64,000 nucleotides of DNA from Sphingobacteriales bacterium. Lineage in GTDB: Bacteria; Bacteroidota; Bacteroidia; Chitinophagales; LD1. Made by a program: the position numbers and the translations under genes. Positions within the stretch are counted from its first letter, which is position 1. Each line of letters starts with the position of its first letter. The notes beneath the pieces are model-generated. The model was not told the DNA's origin and ran no database searches. It saw only the letters and a list, made by a program, of their open reading frames with translations. Positions 62,879 to 64,000 of the stretch are shown piece by piece. The DNA is taken from contig JADFDM010000012.1 of assembly GCA_018262795.1 (NCBI GenBank), positions 62,001 to 126,000 of the forward strand. The letters are read 5' to 3'.

Positions 62879-62907
62879 AAGGGTTTCAGGAAAACCTTGA
62901 AACCCTT
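62879..62907 (-). terminator. Terminator of the tRNA-Val gene (minus strand)
   Basis: aagggtttca (62879-62888) pairs with tgaaaccctt (62898-62907), with gg/cc extending the stem and an aaaa loop. The complement of the preceding A-run (62872-62880) gives a T-tail on the minus strand. It lies just 12 bases past the 3' end of the tRNA fragment. Confidence 0.8.
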
Positions 62908-62919
62908 ATTTGTGTTCTG

Positions 62920-62966
62920 TGGGAGTTACAGGATTCGAACCTGTGACCCTCTGCTTGTAAGGCAGA
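62920..62966 (-). tRNA. 3' fragment of tRNA-Val(TAC), attachment site of an integrated element
   Basis: On the minus strand one reads an anticodon stem-loop (stem tctgc/gcaga, loop cttacaa, anticodon TAC), a 5-base variable loop, a T arm (stem acagg/cctgt, loop ttcgaat) and the 3' acceptor strand aactccc plus discriminator A. The CCA end is not encoded. Upstream of the anticodon stem (from 62967) there is no D arm and no 5' acceptor strand, so half of the tRNA is missing. This is the pattern left at one end of an element inserted into a tRNA gene, with the complete tRNA expected at the far end. The adjacent tyrosine recombinase supports this reading. Confidence 0.82.
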
Positions 62967-63084
62967 ATTTTACACTATTATTTTTCTATTTCTTTATTGC
63001 CGATTTGCCTATGAAAAAGTAATTTACAGAGGCAATTATACTATTCTTTTACTTTTTGATGTTAGTAGTTTATTTATTGTTTCT

Positions 63085-63122
63085 GTATGCAAATGGTATG
63101 CAACTGATTTATATTTGCATAC
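63085..63122. promoter_or_regulatory. Operator-like repeats upstream of the integrase
   Basis: gtatgcaaat (63085-63094) and atttgcatac (63113-63122) are exact inverted copies, and a third, partial copy gtatgcaa (63096-63103) lies between. The set ends 13 bases before the integrase ATG at 63136, where a repressor or the recombinase itself could bind. Confidence 0.5.
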
Positions 63123-63135
63123 AAACGTATAGACA

Positions 63136-64000
63136 ATGGAAAAACAATACTTCATTTCTCTGTGGTTAGATACCCGAAGAAAAAAGGCAAACGGCATGTA
63201 TCCTGTGAGGTTACGGGTATTCACTCCGTCACCAAGAAAACAGAAACTTTACCCCACCACCTTTGATTTTAAAGAAGCCGACTTTAAAGCCATTTGGGAA
63301 ACCGTTAAACCTCGTAACGAACACAAAGAAGTTAGAAAGCAATTACAGGCGGTGGTGGATTTGGCAGAAAGTGTTGCCGAAAAGTTAGAGCCGTTCAGCT
63401 TCACCGATTTTGAAAAAAGACTTTTTACCAGCAAGGGCGATGCCGCAAATGTTTTTTGGCACTACCAACAAATAATTAGTGAACTGAAACGAAATAACCA
63501 GTTGGGAACTGCCAGCAACTACGAATTGAGTTTAAAATCTTTGAAAGGATATATTGAACACACTAAAGGCAATGCTCCCGAAAAGCTACTCTTTAAAGAG
63601 GTAACAAAGAAATGGTTGAATGACTTTGAACGGTATATGCTAAATGAAAAACAGCGAAGCCACACCACCGTTTCAATGTATGTTCGCGCCCTCCGAACTG
63701 TATTTAATCGGGCTATCAAAGAAAATGATATTGAAAAGAGTATTTACCCCTTTGGCAAAGATGCTTACCAAGTGCCAGCAGTAAAGCGGGTAAAAAAGGT
63801 TTTGAACCGCCAACAGTTAAAGAAATTATTTGAAGCCAAACCACGAACCCCCGAACAAGAAAGGGCAAAAGACTTTTGGTTTTTCTCTTATTCCTGTAAT
63901 GGAATGAACATAAAGGATATTGCCCTGCTTCGTTATGAGAACTTACAGGGAAATACACTCAAATTTTTTAGAGCCAAAACCATGAACACGAATAAGGAAA
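63136..64000 (+). CDS. Tyrosine recombinase/integrase, 3' end outside window
   Basis: 288 codons are visible, without a stop. The start MEKQYFISLWLDTRRKKANG is the beta-stranded arm-binding domain of Bacteroidota integrases. A SAM-like core-binding domain follows (TASNYELSLKSLKGYIEHTKG, then SHTTVSMYVRALRTVFNRAI), and the catalytic domain begins near VLNRQQLKKLFEAK. At the place of the first catalytic Arg the sequence reads FSYSCNGMNIKDIALLRY, with Asn-Gly; loss of Arg I is known in the IntDOT group. The HxxR and Tyr motifs lie outside the window. It catalyses integration and excision at the adjoining tRNA-Val site. Confidence 0.88.
   Translation, partial: MEKQYFISLWLDTRRKKANGMYPVRLRVFTPSPRKQKLYPTTFDFKEADFKAIWETVKPRNEHKEVRKQLQAVVDLAESVAEKLEPFSFTDFEKRLFTSKGDAANVFWHYQQIISELKRNNQLGTASNYELSLKSLKGYIEHTKGNAPEKLLFKEVTKKWLNDFERYMLNEKQRSHTTVSMYVRALRTVFNRAIKENDIEKSIYPFGKDAYQVPAVKRVKKVLNRQQLKKLFEAKPRTPEQERAKDFWFFSYSCNGMNIKDIALLRYENLQGNTLKFFRAKTMNTNKE

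Follow-up and report, generated by a model that had tools for sequence, protein, structure and literature searches.

A complete integrative element of 6.7 kb occupies the tRNA-Val(UAC) gene of this Sphingobacteriales genome, and its most likely identity is that of a minimal phage satellite. Our confidence in this reading is moderate. The element combines integration, excision-type helix-turn-helix (HTH) and replication-type genes with a small-terminase-like gene, without recognised capsid, tail, large-terminase or relaxase genes. Judged from its gene content, the element is probably carried in phage particles and is not itself a carrier of defence genes.

The window, i.e. the whole stretch of 64,000 nucleotides that was analysed, corresponds to positions 62001-126000 of contig C3 in assembly G000 (a 3.48-Mb genome in 19 contigs); C3 ends at 131936. 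Features beyond the window are located in a stretch of 9.9 kb named L010, in which each position equals the window position minus 60000.

Attachment sites in tRNA-Val

The boundaries of the element are marked by the following features.

62879-62907, minus strand: original tRNA-Val terminator hairpin, kept beside the displaced 3' half (12-bp stem, minus-strand T-run, RNA fold z -4.2)
62919-62966, minus strand: displaced 3' half of tRNA-Val(UAC), from the anticodon stem to the 3' end, which is the attachment core on the integrase side (48-bp exact repeat)
L010:9609-9636, minus strand, beyond the window: strong hairpin supplied by the element past the restored tRNA (RNA fold z -8.3)
L010:9646-9721, minus strand, beyond the window: whole, intact tRNA-Val (ARAGORN) containing the second core copy (exact repeat)

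ARAGORN detected no complete tRNA in the window. A 46-base core pattern, searched with 3 mismatches permitted, had exactly two matches in the assembly, both on C3 and both with zero mismatches, and the reversed pattern, used as control, had 0. The exact repeat extends over 48 bp, the starts of its two copies lie 6,727 bp apart, and a chance origin of such a repeat at this distance is excluded. The far copy forms the 3' part of the intact tRNA-Val, near the contig end. When the left flank plus core was joined in silico to the right flank, an intact 76-base tRNA-Val followed by the old terminator was obtained. As this join reads, the 3' half of tRNA-Val is displaced by the element, which brings its own copy at the opposite end, and the tRNA stays whole because that copy replaces the displaced half. 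The hairpin at L010:9609-9636 may be a replacement terminator; it is without a long T-run and does not figure in the terminator scan list.

The preliminary description of this DNA had recognised one end of an element integrated in tRNA-Val(TAC), and the direct repeat together with the intact tRNA-Val at the other end bears this out. Its observation that only the anticodon-to-3' half of the tRNA is left, followed by a terminator, agrees with the minus-strand half, hairpin and T-run listed above, and the second core copy that it expected downstream in a complete tRNA-Val lies at the distance and place given here. It had put the core at 62920-62966, which located it to within one base; the exact repeat gives 62919-62966. 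Both features by which a tRNA-integrated element is recognised are thus present: the tRNA 3' end is directly repeated at the two ends, with one copy within an intact tRNA, and an integrase gene adjoins the attachment core.

Empty sites were sought via the left flank, in which ccmE served as anchor. A ccmE match was present in 36 of 40 genomes, and no tRNA lay within the approximately 1.5 kb taken near ccmE at the 29 loci (of 30) from other genomes, so that the left neighbourhood is not conserved; ccmE synteny at these 29 loci yielded no unoccupied site in a sister strain that is flanked as here. The core pattern itself occurs in 10 of the 18 genomes of the genus, own genome included. Intact tRNA-Val was found at 9 of 10 core-pattern loci from other genomes of the genus, all 9 with a terminator-like hairpin directly after the tRNA (by reading). 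The exception, L053, shows another displaced tRNA-Val 3' half with terminator (L146, G004:C72), and no integrase was recognised in the stretch taken there.

The integrase and its candidate sites

The preliminary description had further reported a tyrosine recombinase starting about 170 bases from the tRNA half; the distance between the core and the start codon at 63136 is 169 bases.

63084-63094, plus strand, and 63113-63123, minus strand: two exact copies of TGTATGCAAAT upstream of int, with one additional imperfect copy in 63084-63123
63136-64000, plus strand, running on beyond the window (whole gene L010:3136-4392): int, tyrosine recombinase of 418 aa (Phage_int_SAM_5 2.3e-19, Phage_integrase 2.6e-13)

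Four exact copies of TGTATGCAAAT occur in L010 versus 0.01 expected. One pair is close to the integrase end of the element (L010:3084-3123), the other pair close to the opposite end (L010:9585-9606), and these copies are candidate arm-type integrase sites or excisionase sites. By eye, the first catalytic arginine of the integrase (63136 on to L010:4392) is seemingly absent, an asparagine standing in the motif NGMN; this arginine is likewise absent in some other Bacteroidota integrases.

Of 30 loci holding the closest relatives of the integrase, drawn from 392 genomes of the order, five (own included) have a tRNA-Val 3' half approximately 170-220 bases from int, a sixth has a similar tRNA half with a different anticodon, and at the other 24 no tRNA-Val 3' half was found with that pattern. 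A tRNA-Val remnant is also present on the integrase side at L090, a 69% relative from the same genus. In another family of the order, a relative of approximately 7.8 kb (L098) has an intact tRNA-Val at one end and, at the other, a displaced half adjoining int. That locus additionally contains two tRNA-Val 3' fragments in tandem (L098:13172-13580), each with a terminator-like hairpin; by reading, the short gene between them resembles a GIY-YIG nuclease, and the arrangement looks as though two insertions shared one tRNA. No viral relatives of the integrase met the search criterion.

Gene content

The element comprises eight genes, all on the same strand. Besides int, these are genes B to H (L010:4414-9500), which lie beyond the window.

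L010:4414-5289, plus strand: B, 291 aa, no family; one relative found (L086, 32%)
L010:5384-5740, plus strand: C, 118 aa, HTH_17 (1.1e-7), phrog_66 excisionase/regulator (1.3e-6)
L010:5734-6780, plus strand: D, 348 aa, AAA_25 (2e-13), phrog_19 DnaB-like helicase (7.9e-17)
L010:6843-8066, plus strand: E, 407 aa, zinc ribbon, DUF6371 (2.5e-67) and DUF6965
L010:8086-8712, plus strand: F, 208 aa, no family
L010:8726-9049, plus strand: G, 107 aa, no Pfam match above cut-off
L010:9042-9500, plus strand: H, 152 aa, no family

Its zinc ribbon and position suggest that E is primase-like. Within the order, E has relatives in 50 of 396 genomes (own included) and H in 1 of 392, namely its own genome. No viral relatives of H met the search criterion, and F and H had no match in phages at E ≤ 0.1. 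Virion families (capsid, portal, large terminase) were absent among the eight proteins at E ≤ 0.001. Integration, excision and replication genes without own virion genes are a general mark of a phage satellite, and this is the combination found here. A gene or site by which helper packaging is redirected, such as terS, is a second mark, and for it G is the candidate.

The preliminary description had named the cargo as the most likely place for defence systems. This expectation fails for a 6.7-kb element in which none of the eight proteins matches a PADLOC model at E ≤ 0.001, and defence cargo was rejected for this copy. The sole result that leans towards it is a match of C to the NCBIfam defence HTH protein MADS1 (MAD1) of 1.1e-16 and 60.8 bits, below the cut-off of 80.

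The same genome contains a second DUF6371-type stretch with an integrase (L085, G000:C14, positions 160001-180000). By reading it encodes two HTH proteins and an ATPase, its DUF6371 protein is 47% identical to E, and no G gene was seen in it.

The small-terminase-like gene G

G is probably a small-terminase-like protein, for which a role in packaging is predicted. Its similarity to a Bacteroides phage protein annotated as DUF5681 reaches 1e-8 in tblastn. Members of the G family also have weaker tblastn relatives (E of 3e-3, 7e-3 and 1e-2) in the environmental phages MW202710 and MW202462 and in Sulfitobacter phage pCB2047-C; these are short ORFs, each overlapping the beginning of the gene annotated as large terminase. 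In two Pseudomonas phages the annotated large-terminase gene is separated from the G-like ORF by two other genes. SUSP2 was rejected as an example of a terminase neighbour, its G-like gene being followed by a DUF7788/DUF2828 protein and no terminase. One G-family search matched 298 phage records, mostly enterobacterial and, in the rows listed, largely with the N-terminal part; three of them were inspected.

Viral contigs were scanned with seven G-family proteins, and the G ORF was recovered in 79 of 80 loci, these being the best 80 of 364. In 56 of the 79, the next ORF lies on the same strand within 200 nt and measures 380-700 aa, and 47 of the 49 distinct terminase-sized neighbours match the TerL family phrog_2. 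Of the other ORFs in these contigs that measure 80-165 aa, 20 of 506 have such a neighbour, a control that left out ORFs open at the 3' end, which the count of 56/79 kept. The terminase-sized ORF is not next in the remaining 23 loci; these hold most of the closest matches to the present G (7 of the 8 best listed) and include contigs arranged like the Bacteroides phages in which G lies near or beside int.

When 12 G-family proteins, including two from Bacteroides phages, were compared by hhalign with 47 phage homologues (34 adjoin a terminase-sized ORF), the probability was 99.8 and the E 4.5e-29, versus 1.5 and 0.03 in a control with HTH proteins. The similarity spans about 75 of 105 columns, beyond the conserved N-terminal stretch GRPKGTPNK of the G family. 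The predicted structure of a phage G homologue, with three helices (pLDDT 75, pTM 0.40), is too weak to use.

G-bearing relatives across the order

Of 396 genomes in the order, 15 (own included) contain a relative of G (weakest E 8e-4), and an integrase accompanies G in 11 of these 15 (blast, profile, Pfam). By reading, each of the 11 has an HTH protein; with a profile built on six HTH proteins, one is detected in 6 of the 11. Seven contain a recognised replication family: DUF6371 with an ATPase or a DUF5906 protein, a G2P-type initiator (L141) or a BT4734/PriCT-2 primase (L145). DUF5906 is present in L142 and L143. The other 4 of 11 are without a replication family above the cut-off, which counts against the satellite reading; two show one below the cut-off (L133, L137) and two show none (L140, L144). 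In L139 large genes separate G from the integrase, which is on its far side. Three of the 15 G-bearing loci are cut by contig ends, and among G-bearing elements repeats at both ends were found for this one, L098 and L138 only.

Two relatives with a G-family gene carry defence genes. In L138:8966-13891, a defence-bearing relative, the G-family gene and the HEC-01A/B and SoFic genes are flanked by two copies of the mnmE 3' end, and no integrase was recognised; L144:2411-12605, an element of the integrase/HTH kind, encodes type I restriction-modification besides its G-family gene. Similar short gene sets recur in elements of other families of the order.

The 12 G-bearing stretches (11 with integrase plus L138) and L013, described below, form a set of 13 stretches with 102 ORFs. 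These ORFs gave 12 Phage_integrase and 13 HTH_17 matches, and DUF5681 was matched by two of the 102 proteins. A TerL profile matched 0 of 102; in a positive control with 7 terminases, annotated or presumed, it recovered 5, and the two that it missed were the presumed ones, L084 and BF1-TP2 gp60. The family tally for the sister stretches covers the 25 commonest families, and a relaxase in a sister element is possible outside these.

Three further observations concern these loci. L098:6920-7357 encodes a DUF6046/baseplate-hub-like protein (phrog_5233, 3.9e-15), and no other tail gene was recognised in that element. A genome of the same genus has two tandem G-like genes at a contig end (L136:8753-9284), one found by blast and one by reading. 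More generally, the distance from a G-family gene to the nearest contig end is often no more than a few hundred bases (L134, L135, L136, L141, L142, L145), a position that may reflect repeats or free element copies.

An apparent free circle

The IMG/VR contig L013 (6,683 bp) encodes relatives of C, D and E at 54-68%. The gene after its DUF6371 gene resembles the terminase small subunit phrog_24579 (2.9e-6) but scores better against a family of unknown function (9.2e-8). A reading frame of 229 aa runs in frame over the contig ends, and 18 bp of the mnmE 3' end are present in the contig once, a sequence found twice in L086 and twice in L138 (mnmE was identified by reading the protein). The contig ends show no terminal overlap, and no homologue spans the joined ends of the 229-aa frame. 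From this arrangement, L013 appears to represent a circular, excised element that contains one attP.

Comparison with known elements and alternative explanations

On the satellite reading the element would work like a PICI or a PICMI; it is assigned to neither, because the tested defining features of these classes were not found. PICIs are usually about twice the size of this element, and their hallmarks are an Stl-like repressor and divergent operons. Like PICIs (including SaPIs), it has a specific integration site, int, an xis/regulator gene, replication genes and, in G, a probable counterpart of terS, and no capsid genes of its own; unlike them, it carries its genes on one strand, its replication genes and small-terminase family are others, no Stl-like repressor or capsid-size gene was recognised, and beyond the HTH_17 protein no repressor family was detected among the eight proteins. 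The int, xis/regulator, replication and terS set of PICIs is given in the portions of PMC12409344 used here, and those of PMC10803314 describe PICIs as more widespread than any other satellite family, with reports from Firmicutes and Gammaproteobacteria. With PICMIs the element shares a very small size, an integrase, an AlpA/HTH_17 protein, a replication protein and the absence of capsid remodelling genes. It differs in its tRNA-Val site, DUF6371 and small-terminase-like gene, whereas PICMIs, according to the same portions of PMC10803314, are situated beside fis in Vibrionaceae, have DUF3987/DUF5906 primases as part of their definition and show no terS homologue; neither fis nor these primases mark the element described here.

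The element could also be an ordinary integrative mobilizable element that is conjugated by a helper relaxase acting on its own oriT or that has lost its relaxase. NBU1 is a small integrative element of Bacteroidota with a tyrosine recombinase, and the Bacteroides mobilizable elements of its type resemble the present one in these respects; the size, tRNA site and Int, HTH and replication genes fit mobilizable elements equally well. We nevertheless consider this explanation unlikely, as none of the eight proteins has a relaxase or mobilization family at E ≤ 1 and the small-terminase-like gene is left unexplained. The parts of the review PMC5704250 consulted describe mobilizable elements carrying only oriT, but they also state that the NBU1-type elements, and all of the few Bacteroidetes mobilizable elements then known, encode their own relaxase.

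A decayed prophage that retained its int, replication and small-terminase genes would fit three Bacteroides phages in which a G-like gene lies near or beside the integrase gene, as in the circular form of this element, although the integrase is there on the opposite strand. We regard such an origin as quite improbable: all eight frames are open, the core repeats are identical, similar short gene sets recur in other families, and neither the virion families of a prophage in the element nor TerL in the wider set was detected. Little credence is likewise given to G being a DNA-binding protein with another job, e.g. in regulation or replication, in an element that moves by a non-packaging route. 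Its GRPKGTPNK stretch does resemble a generic DNA-binding motif, and some phage homologues are not beside a terminase, but the similarity extends past the motif and the family's viral neighbourhood exceeds the control as described above.

Proposed life cycle and a possible wider class

On the satellite reading, infection by a helper phage would lead the HTH protein and Int to excise the element as a circle, which D and E would replicate. G would then direct the helper's large terminase, so that element DNA is loaded into helper particles; these would inject it into a new cell, where Int would integrate it anew. A search of this genome for a helper with one TerL model gave a single weak match, in an ORF that is PhoH-like by reading, and no capsid-remodelling gene was recognised in the element.

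More tentatively, and short of what we would call probable, the element may belong to a widespread, unnamed class of minimal phage satellites in Bacteroidota. As read, its members would measure approximately 4-12 kb and consist of int, an HTH gene, an interchangeable replication module and a small terminase gene, inserted in tRNA-Val or at the mnmE 3' end. Some would also carry anti-phage genes, and at least one seems to exist as a free circle, in a public viral contig. Our confidence in this class is held down because a replication family is recognised in only 7 of 11 genomes and both ends are known for few elements. If the class holds, the present copy would be a near-minimal member. No description of such elements in Bacteroidota was found in the open literature on phage satellites, tRNA-Val elements, DUF6371 and DUF5681, as covered by titles and the starts of abstracts, with subscription papers mostly outside.

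If these readings are true, minimal terS-bearing satellites in Bacteroidota would open another phylum for the study of phage parasitism. G together with an integrase would be a marker for counting such elements, pairs of satellite and helper would become testable, and DUF6371 and the G family would gain probable roles in replication and packaging.
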